Source: Pandoraea apista
GTDB lineage: Bacteria > Pseudomonadota > Gammaproteobacteria > Burkholderiales > Burkholderiaceae
Length of the DNA stretch: 64,000 nucleotides
NCBI RefSeq assembly: GCF_001465595.2
Contig: NZ_CP013481.2
Span: forward strand, 3,162,001 to 3,226,000
Reading direction: 5' to 3'
Shown here: piece by piece, positions 5,085-62,439 of the stretch
How the letters are laid out: each line of letters begins with the position of its first letter
Position numbering within the stretch: position 1 is the first letter of the stretch
Made by a program: the position numbers and the translations under genes
Notes under the pieces: model-generated
Told to the model about the DNA's origin: nothing
The model's input: the letters and a program-made list of their open reading frames with translations, nothing else
The model's database searches: none

Positions 5085-5223
5085 GCCGTCTCCTTCGGAA
5101 AACCAATGAAAGACGCGGCAGCACCTGCCGCATCGAGAGAAATTCAGGCTGACATTATAGAGGGGAGGGGCAACCGCAATGCCCCGGGATCGCCCGAAAA
5201 GCGGCGTCACTGCTGGATTTCAG

Positions 5224-5278
5224 GCGGCATCCGCACCACCGTTCAGAGGTTTCCGAGCGGAATCCCGGCGGATGCCGC
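5224..5278. repeat. 11-bp inverted repeat between acyl-CoA ligase and livH
   Basis: Arms GCGGCATCCGC (5224-5234) and GCGGATGCCGC (5268-5278) are perfect complements separated by 33 bases. They lie just after the stop of the ligase gene and 140 bp before livH. On RNA this would be a long-looped hairpin without a U tract. It could be an attenuator, a 3' stability element or a protein site; nothing decides between these. Confidence 0.5.
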
Positions 5279-5306
5279 AGTCATGACAGGCGCCATGACC
5301 GGAAAT

Positions 5307-6935
5307 CTACGACGCCGCCTGATAATCGCGGAATTTCTCGCGGAGTTTGAGCTTGAGCATCTTCCCGGTCGCCGTATGGGGAATCTCTTCGACGAACACC
5401 ACATCGTCGGGTATCCACCATTTCACGACACGCCCTTGGTAGAACGCCAACACGTCTTCGCGCGTCAACGTCGAACCGGGTTTGCGAACCACGACCAGCA
5501 ACGGGCGCTCTTCCCATTTCGGATGGCGAACGGCAATGCAGGCGGCTTCGTGAATCTCCGGATGCGCCATTGCGACATTCTCCACGTCGATGGAACTGAT
5601 CCACTCGCCGCCCGATTTGATGACGTCCTTGCTGCGATCGGTGATCTGCACATAGCCTTCCGGGTCAATCGTGGCCACGTCTCCGGTGGGGAACCAGCCG
5701 TCGATCAACGGCGACGCATCCGAGCCGAAATAACGATCGAGCACCCACGGCCCGCGAGCATGCAGATCGCCGAACGCCTTGCCGTCCCAAGGTAACTCCT
5801 CGCCGTCCGGGCCCACGATTTTCAGGTCGACACCGTAAATGGCCGTCCCCTGCTTCTCCAGAATATGTTGCTGCGCCTCGGCCGGCAGGTCGCGGTGATG
5901 TTTGCGTAGATGACATAGCGTGCCAAGCGGCGACATCTCGCTCATCCCCCAAGCATGAATGACACGCACACCGTAATCTTTCTCGAAAGTCTGAAGCATG
6001 GCCGGCGGGCAGGCCGAGCCGCCGATCACCGTGCGCTCCAGCGTCGAGAAGCGTGCGCCGATAGATTTCACATGCGTCAGCAACCCTAGCCAGACGGTAG
6101 GCACACCGGCCGAGAACGTCACGCCTTCGGCCTCGAAGAGTTCGTAAAGCGACTTACCGTCGAGATCCTTGCCGGGGAACACAAGCTTCGCGCCGACAAG
6201 CGCGCTGGAATACGGCAGCCCCCACGCGTTCACATGGAACATCGGCACCACGGGCAATACGGCGTCGCGCGCCGACATGGCCATCGCGTCAGGCAACGAG
6301 GCACCGAAGGCGTGCAGCACCGTGGAGCGATGGCTGTACAGCACTCCTTTCGGATTCCCTGTCGTGCCCGACGTATAGCAAAGACCGGACGCCGTGGATT
6401 CGTCCATCGACGGCCACACGAAATTGCCGTCCTCCGCAGCGATCAACTCCTCGTAGCAAAGCAACGGCAAGCCCGACTCGGGCAGGTGCGCGCGATCCGT
6501 CATTGCGATCCAGCCCTGAACGCCGGGGCACATGGGGGCAATCGTCTCGACCAGCGGCAGAAAATTGATGTCGAACGCGACGAAGCGATCTTCGGCGTGA
6601 TTGACGATATAGGCGATCTGCTCGGGAAACAGGCGCGGATTCACCGTATGCACGACACTGCCCATGCCCGAGACACCGTAGTACAGCTCGAGATGCCGGT
6701 AGCCGTTCCATGCCAGCGTACCCACGCGCTCGCCATCGCCGACTCCCAGCCGGCGTAACGCCTGCGCGAGTTGGCGGGCGCGCCGCTCGGCGTCGCGCCA
6801 GGTGTAGCGGTGGATGTCGCCTTCCACGCGACGTGACACGATCTCGGTGTCGCCGTGGTGACGCGCGGCATGCGTAAGCAGCGAGGAAATCAGGAGCGGC
6901 GCGGCCATCATCTGGCCGAGAAGCGGTGTTGCCAT
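5307..6935 (-). CDS. Acyl-CoA ligase (AMP-forming), medium/long-chain or methylthiopropionate type
   Basis: 542-residue ANL-superfamily adenylating enzyme that makes acyl-CoA from a carboxylic acid, ATP and CoA. It shows the P-loop-like motif [18 protein letters not shown], the A5 motif [11 protein letters not shown], the A7 motif [16 protein letters not shown], the hinge [15 protein letters not shown] and the C-terminal catalytic Lys in [15 protein letters not shown]. Length and N-terminus ([10 protein letters not shown]) match the DmdB/FadD3-like subgroup often annotated as long-chain acyl-CoA ligase or 3-(methylthio)propionyl-CoA ligase. The ATG at 6933-6935 was chosen because the upstream in-frame residues are Arg-rich and not family-like. 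It precedes livHMGF on the same strand, so it may activate what that importer brings in. Confidence 0.9.
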
Positions 6936-7001
6936 GCGTCGAATCTCCAGAAAAGTCGGGAAAACCGGAATTACGGGGATACGTCGGGAATAGCGTTCAG
7001 C

Positions 7002-7027
7002 CGTTCGAGAAGTTCGTGTGTCGAACG
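7002..7027. promoter_or_regulatory. Inverted repeat upstream of the acyl-CoA ligase gene
   Basis: Perfect 7-bp arms CGTTCGA (7002-7008) and TCGAACG (7021-7027) with a 12-bp centre, 67 bp upstream of the ligase ATG. GTTC also repeats at 6995, 7003 and 7012, roughly one helical turn apart. It is a plausible operator for the ligase-liv cluster; no regulator gene is adjacent. Confidence 0.35.
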
Positions 7028-7137
7028 TTGGCACGGTCGGGGCGCGCCTTCTCCGGCACCGCAGAGATTCATTCTTGACGCGCTCGCTCGCCGGGTCAAC
7101 GCCCATCGCTTGTGCGGCGCAGCAGACATGCGGCTAC

Positions 7138-7157
7138 GCCAGTGTACGCACACTGGC
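7138..7157. promoter_or_regulatory. Perfect 8-bp palindrome between acyl-CoA ligase and selO
   Basis: GCCAGTGT (7138-7145) and ACACTGGC (7150-7157) flank a 4-base centre, 57 bp before the selO start and 203 bp before the divergent ligase. It lacks a U tract, so a dyad protein-binding site is more likely than a terminator. It could control selO, the ligase or both. Confidence 0.4.
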
Positions 7158-7213
7158 AGCGCACGACGGACACCTCAAGTAGAATGTTTGTTCACCATCA
7201 GGAACGTCCTCCA

Positions 7214-8731
7214 ATGTCGGCAACCGACCGTCCCGCCCCTGCTTCCACTTCGCTCAAGCCCTACGGACCGTTGCCTTTGGCGAACCGGTTTGCGTCGCTC
7301 GGCAGCGATTTCTATACGCGCCTCGCGCCTCAGCCGTTGCCCGCGCCCTATCTGGTCGGCTTTTCGGCCGACGCCGCGCGGCTGCTGGGCTGGTCGCCTG
7401 AAGCGGCACGCGATCCGGAGTTTCTCGCCACATTTGCCGGCAATGCGCCACTGCCCGGGGGCGACCCGCTCGCCAGTGTCTATTCGGGCCATCAGTTCGG
7501 CGTATGGGCCGGTCAACTGGGCGACGGCCGGGCATTGCTGCTCGGCGAGTCGGACGGCCCCGGTGGCCGCTGGGAAATCCAGCTCAAGGGCGGCGGGCTT
7601 ACGCCCTACTCCCGCATGGGCGACGGACGCGCCGTACTGCGCTCGTCGATCCGGGAATTTCTCGGTTCGGAAGCCATGTTCCATCTCGGCGTGCCGACCA
7701 CTCGCGCCTTGTGCGTCATTGGTTCAGACACGCCGGTGCGCCGCGAAACCATCGAGACGGCAGCCGTCGTGACCCGCCTGTCACCGAGCTTCATCCGTTT
7801 CGGTCATTTCGAGCATTTCTGGGCCAGCGATCAGTACGAAGCGCTGCGTCAACTCGCAGACTTCACCATCGATCATCATTACCCGCACTGCCGCGACGAA
7901 GCCAATCCGTACCTCGCGCTCTTGAGCGCCGTCTGCGACGCCACGGCCGAGATGGTCGCGCACTGGCAGGCAGTGGGTTTCTGCCATGGGGTGATGAATA
8001 CCGACAACATGTCGATTCTCGGCCTGACGATCGACTACGGGCCCTTCGGCTTTCTCGACGGCTTCAACGCACACCACATCTGCAACCACTCCGATACGCA
8101 GGGACGTTACGCCTATCAGGCGCAACCGAATGTGGCGTACTGGAACCTGTTCTGCCTCGCACAAGCCTTGTTGCCCTTGTTCGGCGAAGGGGAGGCGGCG
8201 ATCGAGCAGGCGCAGTCGGTATTGCCGGTGTTCAAGACACGGTTTGCCGAGGAAATCGACCTGCGTATGCGTGCCAAACTCGGATTGCGCGAGTCTCACG
8301 CCGACGACGAAACGCTCATCAATCGTTTGTTCAAGCTGATGCACGAGGGACGCGTCGATTTCACGCGCCTGTTTCGCACGCTCGCCGCGCTGGAACTCGA
8401 GAACCCCGCGGCCGACGAACCGCTGCGTGACATGTTCATCGACCGTGCCGGGTTCGACGCCTGGGCGGTGGATTACCGTGCGCGGCTCCGCCATGAAGCG
8501 AGCACCGACGCCAAGCGCGCTGTGGCCATGCGACTCGTCAACCCAAAGTACATCCTGCGCAATCACCTGGCCGAAATCGCGATTCGCCGTGCCGGCGAGA
8601 AAGACTTCTCGGAAGTCGACACGCTGCTGCGCGTGCTCTCACGGCCCTACGACGAACAACCCGAATTCGAGCGCTACGCCGAGTTGCCGCCCGACTGGGC
8701 CAGCCAGCTCGAAGTCAGTTGCTCGTCTTGA
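7214..8731 (+). CDS. selO: Protein adenylyltransferase SelO (YdiU)
   Basis: 505-residue pseudokinase-fold enzyme that transfers AMP from ATP to Ser/Thr/Tyr of target proteins; family members link redox stress to AMPylation. The nucleotide-binding region reads [20 protein letters not shown] (about 120-139). The catalytic and metal residues lie in MNTDNMSI (Asp264, Asn265) and IDYGPFGF (Asp274), the same 10-residue spacing as in characterised SelO. The protein ends in Cys-Ser-Ser; this is the position of selenocysteine in eukaryotic SelO and of Cys in most bacteria. The ATG at 7214 (MSATDRP) fits family N-termini; an upstream ATG at 7184 is possible. msrB follows 137 bp downstream on the same strand, another oxidative-stress gene. 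Confidence 0.96.
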
Positions 8732-8868
8732 TCGACGGGCATGGCGCCGGCGGGCGCCTGAGTATGACGGAACATTGCAAACCGGGGCATCGCCCCCATC
8801 TGAACAAGGTCAGACGATATACGACGCGCGGCGGCAACTCCGGGGCCGCCGCCCCTGAGGAGACTCTC

Positions 8869-9291
8869 ATGAGCAAAGTTGAAAAAAACGACGCCGACTG
8901 GCGTGCCCAACTCGACGACGTGGAATATCAGGTGACGCGCCATGCGGCCACGGAGCGCGCATTTACGGGCCGTTACTGGGATCACTGGAAAGACGGTACC
9001 TACCGTTGCATCTGCTGCGGAGCGCCGCTGTTCGAGTCGACCGAGAAGTTCGACGCGGGCTGCGGGTGGCCAAGCTATTCGGCTCCCGTGGATAAGTCAG
9101 GCATCGACGAGGTCATGGATTACAGCCACGGCATGGTGCGCGTGGAAGTCCGCTGCCACAACTGCGACGCCCACCTCGGGCATGTGTTCGAAGACGGTCC
9201 GCAGCCGACCGGCTTGCGTTATTGCATCAATTCCGCCTCGCTGAACTTCGAAGACAAGGAAGGTCAGACCGACAAACCCATCGAAGGCTGA
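8869..9291 (+). CDS. msrB: Peptide-methionine (R)-S-oxide reductase MsrB
   Basis: 140-residue cytoplasmic enzyme that reduces methionine-R-sulfoxide in proteins. The two zinc CxxC pairs are Cys47/Cys50 (CICC) and Cys96/Cys99 (CHNC). The catalytic Cys119 is in [11 protein letters not shown] and a candidate resolving Cys65 is in GCGWPSY. The ATG at 8869 follows a strong GAGGAG ribosome site, which excludes the longer in-frame reading from 8719. Its position behind selO suggests joint expression under oxidative stress; the 137-bp gap leaves room for a separate promoter. Confidence 0.97.
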
Positions 9292-9298
9292 ACCCCTA

Positions 9299-9323
9299 CC
9301 CCGCCGGCCCTCTGCCGGTGGGG
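9299..9323 (+). terminator. Hairpin downstream of msrB
   Basis: A 10-bp GC-rich stem (9299-9308 with 9314-9323, one G-T pair) with loop CCTCT starts 8 bases after the msrB stop. There is no U tract, so it may be a weak or Rho-assisted terminator, or a 3' stabilising structure. Confidence 0.45.
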
Positions 9324-9446
9324 CGACACCTGAATTTCGACTTGCGGTGAGCACTTTTGGAGAATTCCCTCCCTGCCAGTGTTCGGACACCGACCGTGCC
9401 TCTGCTAAGCTGACATCTCCTTAACAAGCCTCAGGAAACGTCGCTC

Positions 9447-9866
9447 ATGCCAAGCAAAATCACTGGTTTCAAGCCGCTTCTCTGCGCGGCGGCGGCATCT
9501 TTCGGCATACTAAGTGCCGCGCCTGCCATCGCGCAGTACACCGGCCCGACCGCCAGCCCAGCAACGACCGGAAGCGTGATGGTACCGTCAGTGGCATCGC
9601 ATGTTACGACGGTAGAACGAGCGCTGGTTGCCCCCGACGATGCGGTGGCCGTAATCGAGGGCTTCATCGTCAACCGCCTCAAGCACGAGCATTACACGTT
9701 CCGCGACGACGCCGGCAGGACTATCGAAATCGAGCTAGACGACAAGTACCTGCCGCCGGGTCGGCAAATCACCGACACGACCCGTGTGCGTATCACCGGC
9801 GAAGTCGATCGCCATCGCTTCCGCCCGAACGATATCGACGTGAAGCGCATCGAAATCCTGCCGTAA
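9447..9866 (+). CDS. Periplasmic YgiW/YdeI-type OB-fold stress protein
   Basis: 139-residue protein with a Sec signal peptide (MPSKITGFKPLLCAAAASFG, probable cleavage after AIAQ). It is followed by a BOF/DUF388 OB-fold domain (about residues 50-139) with the family pattern VIEGFIVNRLKHEHYTFRDD, then IEIELDDKY and a C-terminal VKRIEIL strand. Relatives (YgiW, YdeI, VisP) are periplasmic and associated with peroxide or cationic-peptide stress tolerance; VisP binds lysozyme inhibitors and peptidoglycan. The molecular role here is unknown. It stands alone between msrB and yciB and reads in the same direction. Confidence 0.85.
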   Translation: MPSKITGFKPLLCAAAASFGILSAAPAIAQYTGPTASPATTGSVMVPSVASHVTTVERALVAPDDAVAVIEGFIVNRLKHEHYTFRDDAGRTIEIELDDKYLPPGRQITDTTRVRITGEVDRHRFRPNDIDVKRIEILP

Positions 9867-10033
9867 GACGAAGCGCCCGCCCGACCGGGTGGCGGTGTGG
9901 CGCCGCGCGCCGCGCCGCGCTTTCGGAGATTCGCCGCGTCCCTCCAGGGGCCTTTGAAATATAATGGGCGTTTGCTCCCCAGACGCCTTGTGCCCCTGGG
10001 TGTTTGCCCCCGAAGCCCCCAAGTCGAGACTTC

Positions 10034-10567
10034 ATGAAATTTCTTTTCGACCTGTTACCGGTCATTCTGTTTTTCGTCGCCTTCAAGTTCGCCGGCATTT
10101 ATGTCGCCACCGGCATCGCGATCGTGACGACAATTGCGCAAGTCCTCTGGATGTGGCTGCGTCACCGCAAGGTCGAGCCCATGCAATGGGTGAGCCTCGC
10201 AATCATCGTGGTGTTCGGCGGTGCCACCATGGTGCTGCACGACGAAACCTTCATCAAGTGGAAGCCCACGGCGCTTTACTGGCTCTTTAGTATCACGCTG
10301 TTCGTCGCCGAACTCGTCTTCGACAAGAACCTGATCCGCGCCATGATGGAAAAGCAGATGGCGCTGCCCGAGTCACTGTGGCGTGCGGTGAATTTCAGTT
10401 GGGCACTGTTCTTCCTCGCCATGGGCGTACTCAACCTCGTCATTGCTTACCATTTTTCGACCGACACCTGGGTCGACTTCAAGCTCTTCGGTGGCATGGG
10501 CCTCATGGTCGTGTTCATCGTCGTGCAGAGCCTCTGGCTCGCGAAGTACATCAAGCAAGACGAATAA
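10034..10567 (+). CDS. yciB: Inner-membrane septation protein YciB/IspZ
   Basis: 177-residue polytopic membrane protein with about five hydrophobic segments. It starts [21 protein letters not shown] and contains [20 protein letters not shown] and the conserved [16 protein letters not shown] region of the IspZ/YciB family. Family members help septation and envelope synthesis. The ATG at 10034 fits the family; the in-frame ATG at 10004 does not. A TATAAT at 9960-9965, 69 bp upstream, could be its -10 box, although no good -35 precedes it. The bolA-type gene starts 22 bp after its stop, so the two are probably co-transcribed. Confidence 0.93.
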
Positions 10568-50809: not shown

Positions 50810-51277
50810 TCAGAGAAAGCGATCGAGGATTTTCCGGCTCGGCTTGTCCAGCTTGCCCGTGTCGCGAATCAGGAAGTGAATGCCATGACTGTCGGAGATG
50901 AGCAACGTTTGTCCACCCAGACGCCGAATGTCCTCCTCGCCCCGCAACACGAACGACGCCTCGCCCCGGTTCGTCTCGACGGTCCAGGTGCTCGGCGTGG
51001 CGTACGTCGACACACTCAGAATGCGCTGCACCTCGGGCATGAATTCGCGCGCGGCAAGTTCCTCCGCCAACAGGCTACGCATGGCGGTGGGCAGCACGTC
51101 GAGCGAATCGAGCCAGACCAGTTCGCGCCCCTCCGTGCTCACCAGCGCGAGGCCGTCGTCCGGCGCGGCAATCGGAAACGCCCGCACGGGCACTACGCCT
51201 TCGTGGGCAATGCCCGCGGCGTCCGTCAACACCAAACGTCCAAAGGCGTTGCGCGACAAAGTGAAATCGATCTTCAT
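50810..51277 (-). CDS. DUF1854 protein of the cyanophycin locus
   Basis: 155-residue soluble protein, start ATG 51275-51277. DUF1854 spans nearly all of it: GLALVSTEGRELVWLDSLDV, then LPTAMRSLLAEELAAREFMP, VSTYATPSTWTVETNRGEA and DSHGIHFLIRD. I know this family as a regular neighbour of cyanophycin synthetases together with an ABC transporter, and its biochemical role is unknown. It starts 18 bp after the ABC gene stop, so it is the second gene of a two-gene operon. A small accessory or regulatory subunit of the exporter is a reasonable guess. Confidence 0.88.
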   Translation of the reverse strand: MKIDFTLSRNAFGRLVLTDAAGIAHEGVVPVRAFPIAAPDDGLALVSTEGRELVWLDSLDVLPTAMRSLLAEELAAREFMPEVQRILSVSTYATPSTWTVETNRGEASFVLRGEEDIRRLGGQTLLISDSHGIHFLIRDTGKLDKPSRKILDRFL

Positions 51278-51295: not shown

Positions 51296-53734
51296 TCAGT
51301 TAACGGAGAGCGGCTGGGCCGGTGCAGCACTTACGGCTGCAATGGTGGCGGCGGCCTCGGCCGACCCGAGCGTCGCATCGATGTCCGTATCGACATTGCG
51401 TTGTTGCGCCTGATAGAGCTTGTAGTACGCGCCTTCGCGCGCCATCAGTTCATCGTGGTTGCCCACCTCGACGATCTTGCCGCGATCGAGCACCACGAGC
51501 CGGTCAGCCTTTCGCAGCGTCGACAACCGGTGAGCAATGGCAATCGTTGTGCGCCCCTTGACGAGGTTGTCGAGCGCCTTCTGTATTTCCTTTTCGGTGG
51601 CGGTGTCGACCGACGACGTCGCCTCGTCGAGTATCAGAATACGCGGGTCGATGAGCAGCGCACGCGCAATGGAAATGCGCTGGCGCTCGCCGCCCGAGAG
51701 TGCCTGTCCGCGTTCGCCGACCAGCGAATCGTAGCCATGCGGCAGACGCAGGATGAACTCGTGAGCATGCGCCGCGCGCGCGGCCGCCACGATCTCGGCG
51801 CGCGTGGCCTCCGGCTTGCCGTAAGCGATGTTATCGGCAATCGTGCCGAAGAACAGGAACGGCTCCTGCAACACCAGCCCCACGTTCCGGCGGAAGTCCG
51901 AGACCGGCAGCGCCCGAATGTCCACGCCGTCGATCTGGATCGAGCCTTCGGCCACGTCGTAAAAGCGGCAGATCAGATTGACCAGCGTGCTCTTGCCCGA
52001 CCCGCTGTGACCGACCAGACCGATCATCTCGCCCGGTGCGATACGCAGATCCATGCCGCGAATTACCGAACGATTGCCATAGCGGAAGCCAATATCGCGC
52101 AGATCGATGGCGCCCTTCACTTCCTTCAGATGCACCGGATTGACCGGTTCGGGCACGTTCGAGACGTGATCGAGTACGTCGAAGATGCGCTTCGCGCCTG
52201 CGGCGGCCTTCTGCGTAACCGACACGATGCGGCTCATCGAATCGAGACGGGTATAGAAGCGGCTGATGTAAGTCAGGAACGCAGCGAGCACACCGACGGT
52301 GATCTCGTGTTTGGAGATCTGCCAGATGCCGAAGATCCACACCACGAGCAGGCCCACTTCCGTCAGGAACGTCACCGTGGGGGAGAACAACGACCACACC
52401 TTGTTCACGCGGTCGTTCACCACGAGGTTGTGGCGATTGGCCTCCTTGAAGCGTGCGACTTCGCGGTTCTCCTGTGCAAACGCCTTGACCACGCGAATGC
52501 CCGGAATCGTATCGGCGAGCACGTTGGTGATCTCTGCCCAGATCCGGTCGACCTTCTCGAAGCCGTGACGCAAGCGGTCACGCACCAAATGGATCAGCCA
52601 CGCAATGAACGGCAGCGGCACGAGCGTGACCACCGCCAGCCATGGGTTGATCGACACCAGAATGACCGCCGTCATGATGATCATCAGCACGTCGGTGGCG
52701 AAATCGAGCAGGTGCAGCGAGAGGAACACGCAGATGCGGTCGCTCTCCGAGCCGATACGCGCCATCAGGTCGCCCGTACGCTTGCCACCGAAGTACTCGA
52801 GTGAGAGACGCAGCAGATGCGAGTAAGTCGCGGTGCGCAGATCGGCCCCGATGCGCTCCGACACCTTCGCAAGCAGATACGTGCGCGCCCAGCCCAGCAC
52901 CCAGGCGACGACGCCCGCGCCCAGCAGGCCCGACAGGTACATTCCCACCAGACGATAATCGATGGGCTGACCGTTCTGGAACGGGATCAGCACGTTGTCC
53001 ATGAGCGGCATCGTCAGATACGGCGGGATCAACGTCGCGCCCGTGGCGCACAGCGTGAGCAGGAAACCGGCGAGCAACTGGAAACGATACGGACGCGCAA
53101 AGCGCCACAAGCGCAGCAATGCCCATGTCGACGGTGGGGCTTCTGCCTCCGGGTTGCACTGCGGGCACTCGTCGGCGCCCAGTGGCAGTTCAGCCTGACA
53201 GATCGGGCATGTGCCCGTCTCGCCGGCCTCGTGACTGACGGCGTGCCCCGCCGCCAACGCCTCGCGCTGGCGAGCAACGACATCCATCAACGCAAGCGCC
53301 GCCGGGTTGTGACCCAGCGTATAGCGCCAGTTGGCGAGCTTCTCGCGGGCGTCGCACAACTCCAGCGAGCCCACCCCCGCATGATCGGAGTGCGTAAGCG
53401 AGAGGTCGGGGCGATAGGGCCACGACTGCCAGCCGGCACCGTTGCCCTGCCCGTCGCGATTCGCCTCGCGCGCGAGCAGCCGGCGCTCGGTGGCAACCAC
53501 GACGCCTCGGGCGAAGTGCAGTTGAGCGTCCAGATCGACGCTTAGCCAGGCCAGTACTGTCTCGCCGTCGGCCAGTTGCGCAGCGACTTCCGGATACCAG
53601 ACCTCGGCGGCGACATTTCGGGCGGACGCGGATAACGCGGAAGATGCACCGCCCGAAGCGCCGGACGGGCTGCTCTCGGGCGAAGGTGTCGGGGTGGCGG
53701 CAGAAGAAGCCGCAGAAGCGGAGGTGTCGGTCAT
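51296..53734 (-). CDS. ABC exporter with N-terminal zinc ribbon, cyanophycin-associated
   Basis: 812-residue half-transporter. Order: low-complexity Ser/Ala/Pro tail (1-40), a beta-rich domain resembling PH-like modules (about 45-160), a zinc ribbon with Cys176, Cys179, Cys190 and Cys193 (CPIC, CPQC), a six-helix exporter membrane domain (about 215-500) and an ATPase domain. The ATPase has Walker A GHSGSGKST, signature LSGGERQRISIARALL and Walker B ILILDEATSSVD. The fold is MsbA/multidrug-like, normally an exporter homodimer. ATG 53732-53734 was taken; a TTG at 53776 is the only longer option. It diverges from the cphA' gene by 297 bp. Substrate unknown. Confidence 0.9.
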   Translation of the reverse strand: MTDTSASAASSAATPTPSPESSPSGASGGASSALSASARNVAAEVWYPEVAAQLADGETVLAWLSVDLDAQLHFARGVVVATERRLLAREANRDGQGNGAGWQSWPYRPDLSLTHSDHAGVGSLELCDAREKLANWRYTLGHNPAALALMDVVARQREALAAGHAVSHEAGETGTCPICQAELPLGADECPQCNPEAEAPPSTWALLRLWRFARPYRFQLLAGFLLTLCATGATLIPPYLTMPLMDNVLIPFQNGQPIDYRLVGMYLSGLLGAGVVAWVLGWARTYLLAKVSERIGADLRTATYSHLLRLSLEYFGGKRTGDLMARIGSESDRICVFLSLHLLDFATDVLMIIMTAVILVSINPWLAVVTLVPLPFIAWLIHLVRDRLRHGFEKVDRIWAEITNVLADTIPGIRVVKAFAQENREVARFKEANRHNLVVNDRVNKVWSLFSPTVTFLTEVGLLVVWIFGIWQISKHEITVGVLAAFLTYISRFYTRLDSMSRIVSVTQKAAAGAKRIFDVLDHVSNVPEPVNPVHLKEVKGAIDLRDIGFRYGNRSVIRGMDLRIAPGEMIGLVGHSGSGKSTLVNLICRFYDVAEGSIQIDGVDIRALPVSDFRRNVGLVLQEPFLFFGTIADNIAYGKPEATRAEIVAAARAAHAHEFILRLPHGYDSLVGERGQALSGGERQRISIARALLIDPRILILDEATSSVDTATEKEIQKALDNLVKGRTTIAIAHRLSTLRKADRLVVLDRGKIVEVGNHDELMAREGAYYKLYQAQQRNVDTDIDATLGSAEAAATIAAVSAAPAQPLSVN

Positions 53735-54031
53735 TGCTGCGGCAGACGTGTCCTCAAGGGGCGGACAACGAGGCAAACGAAGAAAAATCGAGGCGGACTT
53801 TCCCTGTCAGTCCGCGAAATTGCCGCAAGTATAACCACAGCGACGCCTTTTGCGGCGCGGAGTTCCCCGATGACACGGTGCAGCATGGAAATATTGTTGC
53901 GACGGTCAACCGTTTACGGATTTTTACGTTAAGTAACCAGTTAACTGAACAAGCGCGACCGGCTGTGCCGCCTGAAATCGGCCTCGCCGGCTTCTCCGAA
54001 CCCAGCCTTGACGCGTGAATTAGCCTTAAGA
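53735..54031. promoter_or_regulatory. Divergent control region of the cyanophycin locus
   Basis: 297 bp between the exporter and cphA'. It holds a perfect dyad GCGGACT (53793-53799) / AGTCCGC (53809-53815) close to the exporter. An AT-rich segment near 53911-53950 with repeated GTTAA/GTTAAC lies about 100 bp before cphA'. No consensus sigma-70, sigma-54 or ArgR site is clear. Confidence 0.45.
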
Positions 54032-56665
54032 ATGAAAAAGAAAGACATTGAGATTTTCGATGTCCTGTCGCTGCGCGGCCCGAATATGTGGACATATCGG
54101 CCGGTGCTTGAGGCATGGGTCGATATCGGCGAACTCGAGGAGTTCCCGTCCAACAAGATCCCGGGGTTCCCCGAGCGGCTGTCCGAATGGCTGCCCTCCC
54201 TCATCGAGCATCGCTGCAGCATCGGCGAGCGCGGCGGCTTTCTCCAGCGGCTGCGCGAAGGCACGTGGCCGGGCCACATTCTTGAGCACGTCACGCTTGA
54301 GCTGCAAAACCTTGCCGGCATGCCCGGCGGTTTCGGCAAGGCACGCGAAACGCCGATCTCCGGTGTATATAAGGTGATCGTGCGCGCCTGGCACGAAGAC
54401 GTAACGCGTGCCGCCCTGTTCGCCGCACGCGATCTGGTCATGGCGGCCATTGAAGACCGCCCCTACGACGTGGAAGCGGCCGTGGAGAACCTGCGCGGCC
54501 TGGTCGACAAACACTGTCTCGGTCCGAGTACGGCGTGCATCGTCGACGCCGCCGACGATCGCGACATCCCGCATATCCGTTTGTCCGACGGCAATCTGGT
54601 GCAACTGGGTTACGGCGCAGCCGCCCGGCGCATCTGGACCGCCGAGACCGACCGCACCCCCGCCATTGCCGAGAGCATCTCGCGCGACAAGGACCTGACC
54701 AAGCAGTTGCTCGAATCGTGCGGCGTGCCCGTGCCGGAAGGCCGTCTGGTCGAGAGCGCCGAAGACGCCTGGGACGCCGCGCAAGATATCGGCCTGCCGG
54801 TCGTCGTCAAGCCATACGACGGCAACCATGGCCGTGGCGTGTTCATCAATCTCACCACACGGGACGAAGTCACCACGGCATTCGAGGTAGCGCTCGAAGA
54901 AGGCAACGGCGTGATCGTCGAGCGCTTCGTGTCGGGGCTGGAACACCGCCTGCTGGTGGTTGGCGGTCGCGTCGTGGCCGCCGCCATGGGCGAAATGGCC
55001 TCGGTGATCGGCGATGGCAAGCACACCGTCTCTGAACTCATCGAATTGCAGATCAACAGCGATCCGCGTCGTGGCAGCGCCGAAGATCAGCCCCTGAACC
55101 GCGTGCGCATCGACTCGTCGGCGCGTCTTGAGCTCAAGCGCCAGGGCTTCGACGCCGACGCCGTGCCGCCCGCAGGCAAAAACGTTCTGATCCAGCGCAA
55201 CGGCAACGTCGCCTTCGACGTGACGGATCGCGTGCACCCGAGCGTGGCGGCCCATGCGTCGCTGGCCGCGCGCATTGTGGGCCTGGACATCGCCGGTGTC
55301 GATCTGGTCGCGGAAGACATTTCGCGTCCGCTGGCCGAGCAACGTGGCGCCATCGTTGAAGTCAATGCCGGTCCTGGCCTGCTCATGCATCTGAAGCCGG
55401 CCGACGGTGCGCCACGCCCGGTGGGCCGCGCCATCGTCGACCATCTGTTCCCCGATGGCGACGCCGGCCGCATTCCGGTCGTCGGCATTACCGGCACCAA
55501 CGGCAAGACCGTTACGGCGCGTCTGCTCACGCATCTGCTGCAACTCGCGGGCGAACGCACCGGCCTTGCGTGCAGCGACGGCCTGTTCCTCGACAAGCGT
55601 CTGGTGCAAAGCGGCGACTGCGCCAATTGGGACGCCGCGCACCGCGTACTGATGAACGCCAGCGTGACCGCCGCCGTCTTCGAAAACGACAGCACTGCCA
55701 TTCTCTCCGAAGGTCTCGCCTACGATCGCTGCCAGGTCGGCATTGTGACCAACATCGACCGCCCGGACCATCTGGGCCAGTATTTCGTCGAAGACGTCGA
55801 CCGCATGTTCAGCGTGCTGCGCACCCAAGTCGACGTGGTGCTGCCCGACGGCGTGGCCGTGCTCAATGCCCGCGATCCCCTTGTCGTCGAAATGGCCGAG
55901 TTGTGCGATGGCGACGTGATCTTCTTCGGGCTGGACGAACATCTGCCGGCCATCGTGGCGCACCGCGCCGCGGGCAAGCGCGTGGTCTTCGTACGTAAGG
56001 GTCAGGTCGTGCTGGCCACCGGCTCGGAAGAAAGCAGTGTCGGGGCCACGGCCAACATGCCGCTGACCTACGCTGGCCGGGTCGACTTCCAGATCGAGAA
56101 CGTACTCGCCGCCGTGGCGGCCGCCTGGTCGATGGGCGTGGCGCTCGATGTGCTGCGCGCAGGCGTGACCACGTTCGATGTCGGTCAGGTCGATGCCCCG
56201 GGCCGCTTCACGCTGTTCGAAAAGCAAGGCGCGACGGTTATTGTCGACGACGCGCATAACGCGCCGGCCCTGTCTGCCCTTGCGGCCGCGCTGGCCAGAC
56301 TGCCCGCCGAGCGCCGCATCGCGGTGTACGGCCCGGGCCTCGACCGCATGGACGAAGATTTGCAAGCCGAAGGCAAGCTGCTGGCGCAGACGTTCGAGCG
56401 CGTGGTGCTGTGCGACGACCTGAGTGTCGAGCGCAAACGCCCGCTGGCCGAGTCACGTGCGCAATTGCGCGCGGGAATCGATGCAGCCGGCCGTAAGGTG
56501 CAGGTCACGGACGCCACCGAGCGTCGAGCCGCCGCCGAAGCCGCACTGGCTCAGCTCGTGAGCGGCGATCTGCTCGTGTTGCAGGCCGACGAAGGCGGCG
56601 CTGGCGCGATGCTCGACCTCGTACATCTTTGGATGGGTCAGCCGATGCGCGCGTTGGCTGCCTGA
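54032..56665 (+). CDS. cphA': Cyanophycin synthetase-like protein CphA', Mur-like domain altered
   Basis: 877 residues. The N-domain has LRGPNMW and EHVTLE (EHxxxE, residues 85-90). The ATP-grasp domain (about 200-470) is intact with VVVKPYDGNHGRGV and EVNAGPGLLMH. The Mur-ligase-like domain keeps the P-loop GTNGKT (488-493). Three other motifs differ from the standard enzyme: ETARGG is ENDSTA (551-556), DYGHN is DDAHN (739-743) and GDRRDED is LDRMDED (770-776). ATG 54032 gives MKKKDIEIF. Addition of Asp by the grasp domain looks possible; addition of Arg by the Mur-like domain is doubtful. cphA follows 155 bp later and the two likely work together. Confidence 0.93.
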   Translation: MKKKDIEIFDVLSLRGPNMWTYRPVLEAWVDIGELEEFPSNKIPGFPERLSEWLPSLIEHRCSIGERGGFLQRLREGTWPGHILEHVTLELQNLAGMPGGFGKARETPISGVYKVIVRAWHEDVTRAALFAARDLVMAAIEDRPYDVEAAVENLRGLVDKHCLGPSTACIVDAADDRDIPHIRLSDGNLVQLGYGAAARRIWTAETDRTPAIAESISRDKDLTKQLLESCGVPVPEGRLVESAEDAWDAAQDIGLPVVVKPYDGNHGRGVFINLTTRDEVTTAFEVALEEGNGVIVERFVSGLEHRLLVVGGRVVAAAMGEMASVIGDGKHTVSELIELQINSDPRRGSAEDQPLNRVRIDSSARLELKRQGFDADAVPPAGKNVLIQRNGNVAFDVTDRVHPSVAAHASLAARIVGLDIAGVDLVAEDISRPLAEQRGAIVEVNAGPGLLMHLKPADGAPRPVGRAIVDHLFPDGDAGRIPVVGITGTNGKTVTARLLTHLLQLAGERTGLACSDGLFLDKRLVQSGDCANWDAAHRVLMNASVTAAVFENDSTAILSEGLAYDRCQVGIVTNIDRPDHLGQYFVEDVDRMFSVLRTQVDVVLPDGVAVLNARDPLVVEMAELCDGDVIFFGLDEHLPAIVAHRAAGKRVVFVRKGQVVLATGSEESSVGATANMPLTYAGRVDFQIENVLAAVAAAWSMGVALDVLRAGVTTFDVGQVDAPGRFTLFEKQGATVIVDDAHNAPALSALAAALARLPAERRIAVYGPGLDRMDEDLQAEGKLLAQTFERVVLCDDLSVERKRPLAESRAQLRAGIDAAGRKVQVTDATERRAAAEAALAQLVSGDLLVLQADEGGAGAMLDLVHLWMGQPMRALAA

Positions 56666-56723
56666 GTCGAGTCAGCCCGATTCGCCGCGAGTGGCGGCGC
56701 GCAGACGTTTCTGCCGCCGTCCA

Positions 56724-56787
56724 CTATATAGATAGAACCGAATACCCAAGCCACGGTCGTTTTTCTCGCCAACCATCCGCTATATAG
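56724..56787. repeat. Two CTATATAG palindromes between cphA' and cphA
   Basis: CTATATAG at 56724-56731 and again at 56780-56787, 56 bp apart, each preceded by CC(A/G). They are conspicuous AT islands in GC-rich DNA, 34 and 90 bp before the cphA ATG. They may be binding sites or part of a second promoter for cphA. Confidence 0.5.
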
Positions 56788-56820
56788 GGACGCGAAGTGG
56801 ACAGACAGGGATTGCAATTT

Positions 56821-59400
56821 ATGGAAGTCTCCCGCATCCGCGCACTGCGCGGGCCGAACCTCTGGAGCCGTCACACCGCCATCGAGGCCATTGTGACGTG
56901 CACCGATCTGGAATACTCGATCGGCAATCTGGCCGGCTTCGAGGCCCGTTTGCGCGCGCGCTTTCCCGAGCTGCACGCGCTCACGCCCGACGCCGAAGAG
57001 CGCCCGGTGTCGCTGGCCGATGCCCTTGCCACCACCGCGTTGCAACTGCAAGCGGCGGCCGGCTGTCCGGTGACGTTCAGCCAGACGACGCAAACGATCG
57101 AGCCGGGCACGTTCCAGGTCGTGGTGCAGTACAGCGAAGAACAGGTTGGCCGCCTCGCCTTCGAGCTGGCCCAGCAACTGATCAACGCTGCCCTTGAAGA
57201 CAGCCCGTTCGATCTGGCCGATGCCCTCTACCGTCTTCGCGATCTCGATGAAGACGTACGCCTTGGCCCGTCGACCGGTTCGATCGTATACGCCGCCGTC
57301 GCGCGCGGCATTCCGTACCGCCGTCTGACTGAAGGTTCGATGGTGCAGTTTGGCTGGGGCAGCAAGCAGCGCCGCATTCAGGCCGCCGAGACCGACCGTA
57401 CGTCGGCGGTGGCCGAGTCGATTGCACAGGACAAGGATCTGACCAAGACGCTGCTGCACGCCGCCGGGGTACCGGTGCCGCTGGGCGGCACGGTGCGCAA
57501 CATCGAAGACGCGTGGAAGCTGGTGCAGGAGATCGACGCACCGGTTGTGGTCAAACCCCGAGACGGTAATCAGGGGAAAGGCGTGGCGGTACGTCTGCGC
57601 ACGCGCGAAGAGATCGAGAAAGCCTTCGAGGTTGCACAGGACATCAGCCGCGACGTCATCATCGAGCGCTACATTCCGGGTCACGACTTCCGTCTGCTCG
57701 TCATCGGCAACAAGCTGGTGGCAGCGGCGCGCCGCGATCCGCCGCAAGTTACCGGCGACGGCGTGCATACCGTGCGTCAACTGGTCGAGGCCGTGAACGC
57801 CGACCCGCGCCGCGGCGAAGGCCATGCCACGTCGCTCACCAAGATTCGTTTCGACGACATCGCGCTCGCCACGCTCGCCAAGCAAGGGCTGAGCGCCGAC
57901 TCCGTGCCGGACGCCGGCGCCCGTGTCGTGTTGCGCAACAACGCCAACCTGTCGACCGGCGGCACCGCCACCGACGTGACCGACGATGTGCACCCGGAAA
58001 TCGCGGCGCGCGCCGTGGCTGCTGCCCAGCAAGTGGGGCTGGACATTGCCGGTGTCGACGCCGTGTGCGAAACCGTCATCAAGCCGTTCGAAGAGCAGGC
58101 CGGCGGCATTGTGGAAGTCAATGCTGCGCCGGGCCTGCGCATGCATCTTCAGCCGTCGTACGGCAAGGGCCGTGCGGTCGGCGAGGCAATCGTCTCGACC
58201 ATGTTCGCAGACGGCGACGACGGCCGCATTCCGGTCGTGGCGGTCTCCGGCACAAACGGCAAGACGACCACCGTTCGCCTGATTGCTCACCTCATCACCC
58301 AGCAGGGCCTGCGCGTTGGCATGACCGGCACCGACGGCATCTATATCAGCGGCCAGCGTATCGACACCGGCGATTGCAGCGGCCCGCGCAGCGCGCGCAA
58401 CGTGCTGATGCACCCGGACGTGGATGCCGCCGTGTTCGAGACGGCGCGCGGCGGTTTGCTGCGCGAAGGTCTGGCCTATGACCGTTGCGACGTGGCGGTG
58501 GTCACGAATATCGGTATGGGCGACCATCTGGGCCTGTCGTACATCAACACGGTGGAAGATCTCGCCGTGCTCAAGAGCGTGATCGTGCGTAACGTGGCGC
58601 CGCGTGGCATGGCCGTGCTCAACGCCGCCGACCCGATGGTTGCGCGCATGGCCGATGCCTGTCCGGGCGACGTAACATACTTCGCACTCGACGCCTCGCA
58701 TCCGGTGCTTGCCACGCATCGCGCGAAGGGCAAGCGCGTGGTTTATGTCGACGGCGGCAACATCGTCACGTCGCATGGCAGCGAAGAGACCCGCTACGCG
58801 CTGGCGGCGATTCCGCTCACGCGCGGTGGTGCCATCGGCTTCCAGGTCGAGAACGCCATGGCGGCGGTGGGTGCCGCCTGGGCGTTGAACATCGATCCGG
58901 TCACGATCCGTGCGGGGTTGGCCACCTTCGTGAACGACGCGGGCACTGCGCCGGGCCGCTTCAACGTGTTCGACTACAAGGGCGCGACCGTGATTGCCGA
59001 TTACGGTCACAATCCCGACGCCATTGCGGCGCTGACGCAGGCCGTGGAAACGATGCCCGCACGTCGCCGTTCGGTGGTGATTTCGGGCGCGGGCGATCGC
59101 CGCGACGAAGACATTCGCCGCCAGACGCAGATCCTGGGCGACGCGTTCGACGATGTGCTGCTTTATCAGGACCAATGCCAGCGCGGACGCGAAGACGGCG
59201 AAGTGCTGCGATTGCTGCGCGAAGGTCTCGTCGGTGCGCGTCGCGCGAGCCATATCGACGAGATTCACGGCGAGTTCCTGGCCATCGACACCGCACTCGC
59301 CCGCTTGCAACCGGGCGATCTGTGCCTGATCCTCATCGATCAGGTGGACGAAGCCCTCGCGCATATCTCGCAGCGCGTAGCAGAGGCCAACGCTCGCTGA
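56821..59400 (+). CDS. cphA: Cyanophycin synthetase CphA
   Basis: 859 residues from ATG 56821 (MEVSRIRALRGPNLW); a GTG at 56797 with AGGGA six bases upstream would add eight residues. It polymerises aspartate (backbone) and arginine (side chain) with ATP. The ATP-grasp domain (about 190-460) has VVVKPRDGNQGKGV and EVNAAPGLRMH. The Mur-like domain is complete: GTNGKTTT (477-484), ETARGG (540-545), DYGHNP (727-732) and GAGDRRDED (756-764). In the N-domain the EHxxxE motif is absent; the aligned residues are ATTALQ (70-75). It should therefore elongate but depend on primers made elsewhere, perhaps by CphA'. No cyanophycinase or isoaspartyl dipeptidase gene is in the window. Confidence 0.96.
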   Translation: MEVSRIRALRGPNLWSRHTAIEAIVTCTDLEYSIGNLAGFEARLRARFPELHALTPDAEERPVSLADALATTALQLQAAAGCPVTFSQTTQTIEPGTFQVVVQYSEEQVGRLAFELAQQLINAALEDSPFDLADALYRLRDLDEDVRLGPSTGSIVYAAVARGIPYRRLTEGSMVQFGWGSKQRRIQAAETDRTSAVAESIAQDKDLTKTLLHAAGVPVPLGGTVRNIEDAWKLVQEIDAPVVVKPRDGNQGKGVAVRLRTREEIEKAFEVAQDISRDVIIERYIPGHDFRLLVIGNKLVAAARRDPPQVTGDGVHTVRQLVEAVNADPRRGEGHATSLTKIRFDDIALATLAKQGLSADSVPDAGARVVLRNNANLSTGGTATDVTDDVHPEIAARAVAAAQQVGLDIAGVDAVCETVIKPFEEQAGGIVEVNAAPGLRMHLQPSYGKGRAVGEAIVSTMFADGDDGRIPVVAVSGTNGKTTTVRLIAHLITQQGLRVGMTGTDGIYISGQRIDTGDCSGPRSARNVLMHPDVDAAVFETARGGLLREGLAYDRCDVAVVTNIGMGDHLGLSYINTVEDLAVLKSVIVRNVAPRGMAVLNAADPMVARMADACPGDVTYFALDASHPVLATHRAKGKRVVYVDGGNIVTSHGSEETRYALAAIPLTRGGAIGFQVENAMAAVGAAWALNIDPVTIRAGLATFVNDAGTAPGRFNVFDYKGATVIADYGHNPDAIAALTQAVETMPARRRSVVISGAGDRRDEDIRRQTQILGDAFDDVLLYQDQCQRGREDGEVLRLLREGLVGARRASHIDEIHGEFLAIDTALARLQPGDLCLILIDQVDEALAHISQRVAEANAR

Positions 59401-61368: not shown

Positions 61369-62280
61369 CTACAGGTGAAAATCGCCCGCCGCTTCCGGCT
61401 GGTAAAGCACTTTCTCAATCCGAATGCAGCGAGTACGGTCTGGAATCCGCCAGTCGATGGCATCGCCCTCTTTGTAACCCAGAATCGCGGTGCCAACGCC
61501 GGAGAAAACCGACAGTTTCCCGGCGCTGCCATCGGCGTCCTGCGGATAGACCAGATCCACTTCCACTTTCTCGTCGTCCAGATGCAGCACGGCCCTGGAG
61601 TTCATCGTGACGACATCCCGTGCCACCTGCCGAGCATCCACGACGATGGCTCGCTCGATCTCGTGCTCCAGTTCCACCACGTCGGGGCCTGACTCCAGCG
61701 CCACCAGATGCCTAAGCCGGGTCTGGTCGATTTCAGTGATGTAGATCTCCGAAGCGCCGCCCAAAGCGCCTTCGCGCAAACGCTGTAGATAGCGCTCCGA
61801 GGTCATCGCATATGACTTCATCGTGGGGGTTTCACTGTCGAGCAGAAAGCCGCAACGCAGGAACGTCTTCAGCGAGCGCGCGTTGTCGATGTGGATCTTG
61901 GCGATGACCTTCTCGGCCCGCATATCGAAGAAGGCGAGCTTCATGCCTTCGCGCAAGGCGCTGGCACCGAGCTTACGGCCCCAGTTGTCGCGGTTTCCGA
62001 TGACCAGAACGATCTCGCAGTCCGGCCCCGTCTTGATCAGACGCACGAAGCCCACCGGCTCGTCATATCGGTCGTAGGCCATGAAGAACCGGCCGCCTTG
62101 ATTGAACAGATGAGTGAGGATCGGCAACTGGACCCGATCAACGACTTGTTCGATGAACCGTGAAACGTGACGTGAATCGCTCAGATAGCGGATGACGGCC
62201 TCGTCTTCCAGCCAGTCCATCAAATTCAGCGCGTTTGCCCGAGTGATCTCCGGGCACAGAGAAATGAAAGGCTTGCTCAT
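61369..62280 (-). CDS. Fusion of GNAT acetyltransferase and Rnk (GreA/GreB C-terminal-like) domain
   Basis: 303 residues. N-terminal GNAT domain (about 8-165): FFMAYDRYDEPVGFVRLIKT, the acetyl-CoA loop GNRDNWGRKLGASALREGM and IHIDNARSLKTFLRCGF. C-terminal Rnk domain (about 177-303): IYITEIDQTRLRHLV, RDVVTMNSRAVLHL, VDLVYPQDADGSAGKLSVFS and the ending YQPEAAGDFHL, closely like E. coli Rnk, a GreA-like RNA-polymerase-binding factor that raises nucleoside-diphosphate kinase levels. The ATG at 62278-62280 has GGTGAAG upstream. Acetylation target and the meaning of the fusion are unknown. It is transcribed alone. Confidence 0.9.
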   Translation of the reverse strand: MSKPFISLCPEITRANALNLMDWLEDEAVIRYLSDSRHVSRFIEQVVDRVQLPILTHLFNQGGRFFMAYDRYDEPVGFVRLIKTGPDCEIVLVIGNRDNWGRKLGASALREGMKLAFFDMRAEKVIAKIHIDNARSLKTFLRCGFLLDSETPTMKSYAMTSERYLQRLREGALGGASEIYITEIDQTRLRHLVALESGPDVVELEHEIERAIVVDARQVARDVVTMNSRAVLHLDDEKVEVDLVYPQDADGSAGKLSVFSGVGTAILGYKEGDAIDWRIPDRTRCIRIEKVLYQPEAAGDFHL

Positions 62281-62439
62281 CTTCACCACACTTGATTGCA
62301 AGAATAAAAGCCTTTCATGGCTACGGCCATGACGGTTCTTTCGACAAAGCGCCCATTCTAAGACAGTGGGCGCGAGCCGGGGAGTTCCGGGCTCAGACGT
62401 CTGGAAACATCTGGGATTTCGCGCAGGGCCAGTCCACCC

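Follow-up and report, generated by a model that had tools for sequence, protein, structure and literature searches.

According to our analysis, cphA' and cphA, two adjacent genes of Pandoraea apista, probably encode a single cyanophycin synthetase split into two subunits, in which CphA would polymerise and CphA' would supply the primer-making site; we give this reading a probability of roughly 0.6. The genes lie in a stretch of 64,000 nucleotides (nt) of contig NZ_CP013481.2 (positions 3,162,001 to 3,226,000; hereafter the window). Both are on the + strand, as are all the features within them given below: cphA' occupies 54032..56665 (ATG start, 877 amino acids, aa) and cphA 56797..59400 (GTG start, 867 aa; an alternative in-frame ATG start is possible at 56821, MEVSRIRALRGPN). 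The window's contig measures 5.49 Mb and belongs to an assembly of two contigs; the rest of the genome gave two partial matches only, at 29% identity, and no other full-length homolog. Both proteins pass the cut-off (850 bits) of the NCBIfam cyanophycin synthetase family TIGR02068, CphA with 980.8 bits and CphA' with 903.9 bits, the latter despite the alteration of two of its three sites. Among named homologs, those closest to CphA' come from Pandoraea, with 93-95% identity (85% for P. terrae).

In the related enzymes, the N domain makes primers as an endo-cyanophycinase, the G domain adds Asp and the M domain adds Arg (PMC9262961, PMC9427784). The N domain of SuCphA1 bears a zinc metallopeptidase-like site, Cx19HxxEH (C59, H79, E82, and H83), which cuts cyanophycin into primers (PMC9262961). 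Residue positions below follow the numbering of SuCphA1 (SU), unless window numbering is stated. The window's CphA' retains all four residues of this motif (the site comprises H60, C62, H82, E85, H86, and E90 in window numbering; 54209..54301), and none of the four remains in the window's CphA, where ATTALQ (residues 78-83; 57028..57045) stands in the place of the HxxEH helix. The M domains show the opposite state. CphA' has ENDSTA instead of ETARGG (residues 551-556; 55682..55699), with the loss of R561, Leu at the position of K602 (L596; 55817..55819), DDAHN instead of DY(A/G)HN (residues 739-743; 56246..56260), and LDRMD instead of GDRRD (residues 770-774; 56339..56353); CphA retains ETARGG (residues 548-553; 58438..58455), DYGHN (residues 735-739; 58999..59013), and GDRRD (residues 766-770; 59092..59106). 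The M-domain P-loop GTNGKT is present in both proteins (CphA' residues 488-493, 55493..55510; CphA residues 485-490, 58249..58266). ATTALQ, the P-loops and the M-domain motifs, together with EHVTLE at residues 85-90 of CphA', had been read in a first-pass annotation of the window and were found again on re-translation. The EHxxxE pattern, which that annotation took for the motif of the third site, overlaps the end of the true motif; the published one is Cx19HxxEH (PMC9262961).

The same division was found in all 63 loci in which both genes are full length. In each of them, CphA' kept the N motif C59-H79-E82-H83 and lacked both the full R323/S396/R458 set of the G domain and the full K499/E558/R561/H586/K602 set of the M domain, and CphA was its exact opposite, with the N motif lost and the Asp set of the G domain and the M set kept. 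Because the reciprocal state recurs in 63/63 loci, chance is excluded as its source; the survey of cphA'-cphA pairs across Burkholderiales, which the first-pass annotation had called for, returned the reciprocal loss that it anticipated. Moreover, every one of these loci has CphA' and CphA in the same orientation, CphA' being immediately upstream, with a gap of about -34 to 248 nt. Both the reciprocal N and M states and this gene order agree with the earlier suggestion that CphA' is the carrier of the primer site and CphA the elongating enzyme.

The order-level sample comprised 200 genomes of the window's order, searched at E <= 1e-100. Matches were obtained in 75 of them: 69 carry CphA', and six (G041, G086, G113, G127, G165, and G199) carry a single CphA1. 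One of the CphA' genomes, G056, has two further copies elsewhere in the genome. The loci fetched from the order yielded 68 CphA', 64 CphA and 8 other usable open reading frames (ORFs). Thirteen ORFs were excluded, namely seven fragments of CphA or CphA' (two in L100 and one each in L102, L104, L106, L107, and L108) and six that scored less than 250 bits (five Mur-like ORFs, each next to a single CphA1 gene, and one ORF in L105, the start of a CphA that is cut by the end of its contig). In the pair genomes beyond the 63 loci, one gene was fragmented, truncated at a contig end or distributed over more than one contig. A sample of 398 genomes of the phylum, in which the pair was confined to the window's order, added 8 CphA', bringing those counted to 76. 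The comparison rows consisted of 80 cyanobacterial CphA1, 7 CphA2, 8 other rows of the order and 8 singles from elsewhere. In addition, protein sets were compiled, each from the 120 best of about 8000 scored, and are thus near relatives rather than a balanced sample. Among the best 120, the named truncated CphA' belong to Collimonas, Herbaspirillum, Glaciimonas, and Sulfuricella, and the named full-length ones to Pandoraea, Cupriavidus, Ralstonia, Bordetella, Achromobacter, and Microvirgula. A search for viral copies of cphA' gave 12 pattern matches, none of them a relative. In L100 (genome G011), CphA lies in two overlapping ORFs (6016-7656 and 7409-8830), which were left out of the counts; the gene is therefore broken there, or the assembly contains a frame error.

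The full N motif was present in 76/76 CphA' and in none of the 64 CphA; it was also found in 76/80 cyanobacterial CphA1 rows, 6/8 other rows of the order and 8/8 singles from elsewhere, and in 0/7 CphA2. All eight residues H57, C59, F67, R70, H79, E82, H83, and E87 occur in every one of the 76 CphA', and neither C59 nor R70 is found in any of the 64 CphA. Site residues were not enriched among the losses in the N domain of CphA (17 of the 34 fixed positions lost, 6 of the 8 site residues; P = 0.11), so the whole N groove has gone and not the catalytic residues alone. Over the 63 loci, the mean identity of the N domain was 0.644 for CphA' versus 0.596 for CphA.

All 64 CphA show the pattern of a primer-dependent CphA1, having the residues of the G-domain Asp site and the M-domain Arg site without the full N motif. 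TmCphA1, in which the N motif is absent as well, requires a primer, and its primer-independent activity was obtained with G/M-dead SuCphA1 or with the isolated SuCphA1 N domain (PMC9262961). CphA differs from TmCphA1 in lying directly behind an N-intact paralog and in having Gln at position 267; the available passages of PMC9262961 mention no partner of TmCphA1. A similar spread of sites over two protomers was engineered in SuCphA1, whose N-G+M+/N+G-M- heterodimer makes polymer (PMC9262961). That heterodimer carries H267A, whereas CphA' keeps H267 and the ATP and Mg residues and has lost Asp contacts instead. We infer that CphA would polymerise Asp and Arg and would depend on primers when alone, and that CphA' would cut the nascent polymer into primers for CphA, either in trans or as part of a hetero-oligomer. 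The balance of hydrolysis and synthesis is not adjustable by the expression level in the one-chain enzyme (PMC9262961); in the split system it could be open to regulation, since the two activities would now reside on two polypeptides.

That the two genes are independent, CphA being an ordinary primer-dependent CphA1 like TmCphA1 and CphA' a decaying duplicate, appears most improbable. CphA1s without the N motif do exist (TmCphA1, PMC9262961; the extra copies of G056 in locus L094), and the M domain does decay in truncated CphA'. However, the genes are adjacent in 63/63 loci, the N and G domains of CphA' are about as conserved as those of CphA, and the N-site residues of CphA' are invariant in 76/76.

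Mapping onto CphA1 positions confirmed the N- and M-domain losses of the first-pass annotation and added one that it did not contain, namely that the CphA' G domain has lost Asp contacts. In TeCphA1, the incoming Asp is contacted by N394, S396, R323, and R458; R323 and N394 contact its beta-carboxylate, R458 lies near its alpha-carboxylate, and R323 also sits by the gamma-phosphate (PMC9427784). The chain end is bound by R309 and H267, the latter thought to stabilise the acylphosphate, and ATP and Mg are held by K220, K261, D431, and E450 in the G domain, with K499, T500, and E558 serving ATP in the M domain (PMC9427784). In CphA', the position of R323 is Gly in 75/76 and Ser in 1/76 (G320 in the window; 54989..54991), the loop S396-T397-G398-G399 is deleted in all 76 (at N392-V393 in the window; 55205..55210), and the position of R458 is Leu in 73/76, with Met, Ile or Glu in the others and Arg in none (L451 in the window; the stretch from L451 to K455, at SU position 462, is 55382..55396). 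Arg at 323 is present in 64/64 CphA, 80/80 cyanobacterial CphA1 rows and 7/7 CphA2, and all four Asp contacts are intact in the same 64 CphA and 80 cyanobacterial rows. N394 is still aligned as Asn in 68/76 CphA'. With three of the four published Asp contacts lost, the addition of Asp by CphA' is unlikely, and the earlier suggestion of CphA' as an Asp-adding partner is not supported, since R323, S396, and R458 are lost in all 76 proteins.

The other half of the same domain is strictly kept: K220, K261, R309, D431, E450, and N452 are invariant in 76/76 CphA', and H267 is kept in 74/76. The statement of the first-pass annotation that both proteins have an intact ATP-grasp segment thus holds for the ATP half of the G domain and not for the Asp contacts of CphA' or for H267 of CphA. 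CphA, the intact sister group and cyanobacterial CphA1 share 83 fixed G-domain columns. CphA' has lost 12 of them, among which are three of the four published Asp contacts and none of the six ATP, Mg or chain-end residues (P = 0.009, tested after the data had been seen). SU 1-719 was also scanned, without guidance, for residues near-fixed in CphA' that differ from those of CphA and the sister group; the only ones to emerge were I17Y (where both other groups have a gap), A188N, D307E, R323G, the 396-399 deletion, R458L, and F571Y. Four residues past R458, at SU 462, Lys or Arg occurs in 74/76 CphA', and a second basic gain is seen at 545; the basic residue at 462 might take over part of the role of R458. 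The mean G-domain identity over the 63 loci was 0.670 for CphA' versus 0.708 for CphA. Judging from these patterns, selection acts on the CphA' G domain, though not for canonical Asp ligation, because its ATP residues are invariant while K499 of the M domain decays in the same proteins (kept in 25/76). In CphA, the position of H267 is Gln in 62/64 (Q259 in the window; 57571..57573). Taken alone, this does not indicate that the G domain is dead, since the intact sister clade has Gln there in 85/120, and His at 267 seems to be replaceable.

The conserved ATP site implies that the G domain of CphA' would have a second, ATP-using job other than canonical Asp addition, and the chances that this job is that of a non-Asp ligase or of an ATP-dependent holder of the chain end appear about even. 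The first of these would make CphA' a ligase of changed specificity, whose G domain attaches to the C-terminus of the chain a nucleophile that lacks a beta-carboxylate, such as Gly, some other small amino acid or an amine. We hold this tentatively. The product would be a copolymer or a capped oligomer, which the exporter encoded next to the pair may carry out of the cell, and the proposal is compatible with the split reading as far as the N and M domains are concerned. The replacements in the Asp site are fixed and do not resemble random decay (Gly at 323, the 396-399 deletion, Leu at 458), and they are accompanied by near-fixed gains (N188, W202, E307, and the basic residue at SU 462); the ATP-grasp residues are invariant in 76/76 while the P-loop Lys of the M domain is kept in 25/76. 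Furthermore, R323, which contacts the beta-carboxylate of Asp, and the M domain, which modifies that carboxylate, were lost together. The association with an exporter family, the near-absence of cyanophycinase and the lack of observed cyanophycin in wild-type Ralstonia eutropha (PMC11362209) point the same way. However, R458, near the alpha-carboxylate, has also gone, R323 by the gamma-phosphate may serve any ligation (PMC9427784), N394 as the other beta-carboxylate contact is still Asn in 68/76, and the pocket is read from sequence only. The first-pass annotation had offered a related alternative, that CphA' may add something other than Arg. "Other than Asp" is the better wording, because the G-domain ATP site is conserved and may ligate while the M site suggests that Arg is probably not added.

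The alternative is also tentative: CphA' would be a regulatory, primer-making pseudo-synthetase, with the N site alone catalytic and the G domain acting as a non-ligating sensor or holder that binds ATP and chain ends. The loss of R323, S396, and R458 in 76/76 and of most M lids is consistent with it, as is the state of the full-length M domains, which keep the ATP residues and not R561 or K602 (118/118), a pattern of ATP binding without chemistry. It accounts less readily for the conservation of R309 and the Mg ligands in 76/76 and of H267 in 74/76, which is stricter than mere ATP binding seems to need.

In the M domain, all 64 CphA have K499, E558, R561, D745, Y746, H748, N749, G775, D776, and R777. 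R561 is present in 64/64 CphA and absent from 76/76 CphA'; K602, presumably the carbamylated lysine of Mur ligases, is Lys in 64/64 CphA and lost in 75/76 CphA'. The complete Arg-ligase set (K499, E558, R561, H586, and K602) was found in 0/76 CphA'. The lengths of CphA' fall into three classes: 67/76 fall below 780 aa, with no M lid, two measure 780-860 aa and seven, including the window's, at least 860 aa. K499 of the P-loop, present in 25/76 CphA' of the genome sample and often decayed in truncated forms, is kept in 118/118 full-length proteins. These 118 proteins, many of which come from few genera and are not independent, all have Asp at both A560 and Y746, with Ser or Asn replacing R561 and Leu, Phe or Met replacing K602. 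The seven full-length genome loci show the same three residues at K602 and Ser at R561; among them A560 varies, and Y746 is Asp, Gly or Asn. The mean pairwise identity of the M core over the same 63 loci was 0.450 for CphA' versus 0.676 for CphA. The window's CphA' keeps K499, E558, and H586 of the M set and has lost the equivalents of R561 and K602; its ATP site is intact (GTNGKT, E551, D579, H580, and H742 in window numbering). The M domain therefore probably still binds ATP in the CphA' of the window's clade but is without residues needed for Arg ligation.

Several observations weigh against the split reading. H79 persists in 56 of the 64 CphA and E82 in 43, and three of the four N-motif residues persist in two of them. 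Loss of the N site is also seen in CphA1s that have no such partner, namely TmCphA1 (PMC9262961), the two extra copies of G056 and 4/80 cyanobacterial rows; for this reason, N loss alone is no proof of partner dependence. The K602 position is Lys in one of the 76 CphA', and in a second set, of short CphA' proteins, Lys is aligned there in 46/102, perhaps owing to an alignment shift. In the full-length CphA', the M-domain ATP residues K499, T500, E558, D585, H586, D745, H748, N749, and R777 are kept in 118/118, and a plain "dead M" is thus an insufficient explanation. The primer-free activity of the engineered heterodimer was somewhat lower with N on the other protomer (PMC9262961), so the split is not obviously advantageous. 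Finally, the product may not be cyanophycin, given that wild-type R. eutropha H16, which has two homologs, showed none (PMC11362209).

It is very unlikely that CphA' is a CphA2-like enzyme joining beta-Asp-Arg dipeptides. Like all seven CphA2 (loci L235-L240 and L242; structures 7TA5 and 8FXH), most CphA' have no M lid, and R458 is absent from both; however, a long branch sets CphA2 off from all the other groups. As a dipeptide polymerase, the candidate was rejected: CphA2 keeps R323 and S396 in 7/7 and has the N motif in 0/7, and CphA' is the reverse on both counts.

Phylogenetic analysis placed the two subunits among single-chain relatives. In the careful tree, from which the trait columns had been removed, CphA' and CphA each formed one clade (100/99 and 100/99), and in two trees they were grouped with a third clade, with SH-aLRT (approximate likelihood-ratio test) supports of 97 and 99. 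This closest clade (P0121-P0240) consists of the best 120 matches to the Magnetococcales protein L124, its named members being Magnetococcales and Planctomycetota. It carries all the examined catalytic N, Asp-pocket, ATP and M residues in one chain in 120/120 sampled proteins; A188, E215, and R269 vary within it, and H267 is Gln as described above. Because all three sites are found together in 120/120, the three-site enzyme is most simply taken as ancestral, and the pair would accordingly have arisen by duplication and complementary loss. The careful tree joined CphA with the third clade (89/87), and a quick tree with more columns joined CphA' with it (89); in the approximately unbiased (AU) test, holding CphA and CphA' together gave p = 0.083, and CphA' with the third clade gave p = 0.26. 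In view of these results, our claim is limited to duplication and reciprocal loss and does not extend to the place of the duplication. The only third-clade member with a readable context, L244, adjoins the same ABC and DUF1854 genes as the pair; a second gene behind its synthetase is possible, because the contig ends inside the synthetase gene.

These neighbours lie on the - strand in the window. A divergent MsbA-like ABC (ATP-binding cassette) exporter (51296..53776) matches the NCBIfam "cyanophycin metabolism-associated ABC transporter" NF052233 with 1439.6 bits (cut-off 880), and a DUF1854 protein (50810..51277) matches NF052234, "cyanophycin metabolism-associated," with 234.9 bits (cut-off 150). 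Of the 85 fetched loci, 66 have both ABC and DUF1854 in the stretch, one has an ABC gene running into the contig end, and 18 have neither (nine single-gene or extra-copy loci, four intact pair loci and five contig-end fragments). Genome-wide, DUF1854 was found in 68/69 pair genomes of the order sample and in 0/131 others; in the sole pair genome without it, G122, the contig ends inside the ABC gene. The phylum sample gave DUF1854 in 21/398 genomes, namely 20 pair genomes plus G378, from which L124 comes. A search for a sigma-54 promoter upstream of cphA', allowing up to two mismatches, gave 6/68 regions versus about 3.5 expected from simple shuffles, with none in the window. Neither cphA' (E <= 1e-100) nor DUF1854 was matched in genome G194 of the window's genus (1.2 Mb). 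The window's exporter has an N-terminal extension of about 230 residues before the ABC membrane domain, with a zinc-ribbon-like CPIC-x10-CPQC stretch near residue 190. Further along the window, at 61369-62301 (- strand), a 310-aa ORF combines a GNAT acetyltransferase (residues 27-152) with Rnk_N and a GreA/GreB C-terminal domain, an unusual-looking fusion.

Cyanophycinase (TIGR02069 over the cut-off) was found in 6/6 single-CphA1 genomes, five of which have it on the contig of the synthetase and close to that gene, and in 4/69 pair genomes: G056, beside its extra copies, and G102, G068, and G021, with weaker matches (single versus pair genomes, Fisher P = 1e-6). It also occurs in three genomes with neither the pair nor a single CphA1; in the window's genome, the TIGR02069 search gave only one match of 24.7 bits. 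The rarity of cyanophycinase in pair genomes fits the report of 903 betaproteobacterial genomes with CphA1, of which 2.8% had a recognisable cyanophycinase (PMC10206079), and the cphB-less "Group 1" cluster of activated sludge (PMC10687191). Where cyanophycinase is absent, the N site of CphA' could possibly serve as the resident depolymerase, and the same cut may start degradation. The two extra genes of G056 (L094) are convergent and CphA1-like (3176-6607, +, and 7745-10462, -), both without the N motif and with the G and M residues kept; a strong cyanophycinase match lies just upstream of one of them. In L093, L095, L097, L098, and L099, an M-domain-only ORF of 576-720 aa (about 30-39% identity) stands beside the single CphA1 as a stand-alone Mur-like ligase.

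A product other than plain cyanophycin can be proposed, with CphA adding beta-Asp-Arg, CphA' adding or capping with a residue that lacks the beta-carboxylate by means of its rebuilt G domain, still driven by ATP, the N site cutting and the ABC and DUF1854 proteins exporting; we consider this rather unlikely. The name "gargaphycin" belongs to a cyanophycin-like polymer, and a literature search for the word gave 0 matches. For the cphA/cphA' pair of R. eutropha H16, Adames et al. in 2013 reportedly described a CphA' missing part of the "J-loop," transcripts, inclusions in Escherichia coli and no isolable polymer.

The pair shares the N-G-M architecture and family signatures of SuCphA1 (7LG5) and TeCphA1 (7WAC) at about 40% identity, CphA' having the N site and CphA the G and M sites in common with them. 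In SuCphA1, the three sites occur in one chain, whereas the pair divides them reciprocally between two proteins, with most of the Asp pocket missing from CphA'. Tandem cphA copies with an ABC neighbour have been published already, as has work on the R. eutropha pair (cited in PMC11362209). The "Group 1" cluster, with two cphA copies and an ABC transporter, is, by its description, probably the same gene cluster; in the available passages of that study, both copies are treated as cphA and their expression is summed, with nothing said of differing active sites (PMC10687191). Our search of titles and abstracts, which covered literature other than subscription journals and preprints, found nothing on reciprocal sites in a CphA pair, and the literature passages retrieved held none on the reciprocity of 63 loci, the loss of Asp contacts with the ATP site kept, the intact sister clade or the strict link to DUF1854.

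If the split reading is true, the pair is a natural example of a polymerase that has given up its primer-making hydrolase site to a partner protein, and also of change in a ligase domain after duplication. For polymer engineering, it would allow priming and elongation to be dosed separately. Annotation pipelines that call both genes "cyanophycin synthetase" would mislabel one gene of every pair. Two puzzles are opened to test, the degradation of the polymer without cyanophycinase and the absence of cyanophycin in R. eutropha H16; if the product is not plain cyanophycin, granule assays and cyanophycinase searches in betaproteobacteria would have been aimed at the wrong polymer. With cphA' in 69 of the 200 genomes of the order and CphA1 alone in only six, much of the so-called betaproteobacterial CphA1 may be this split system.

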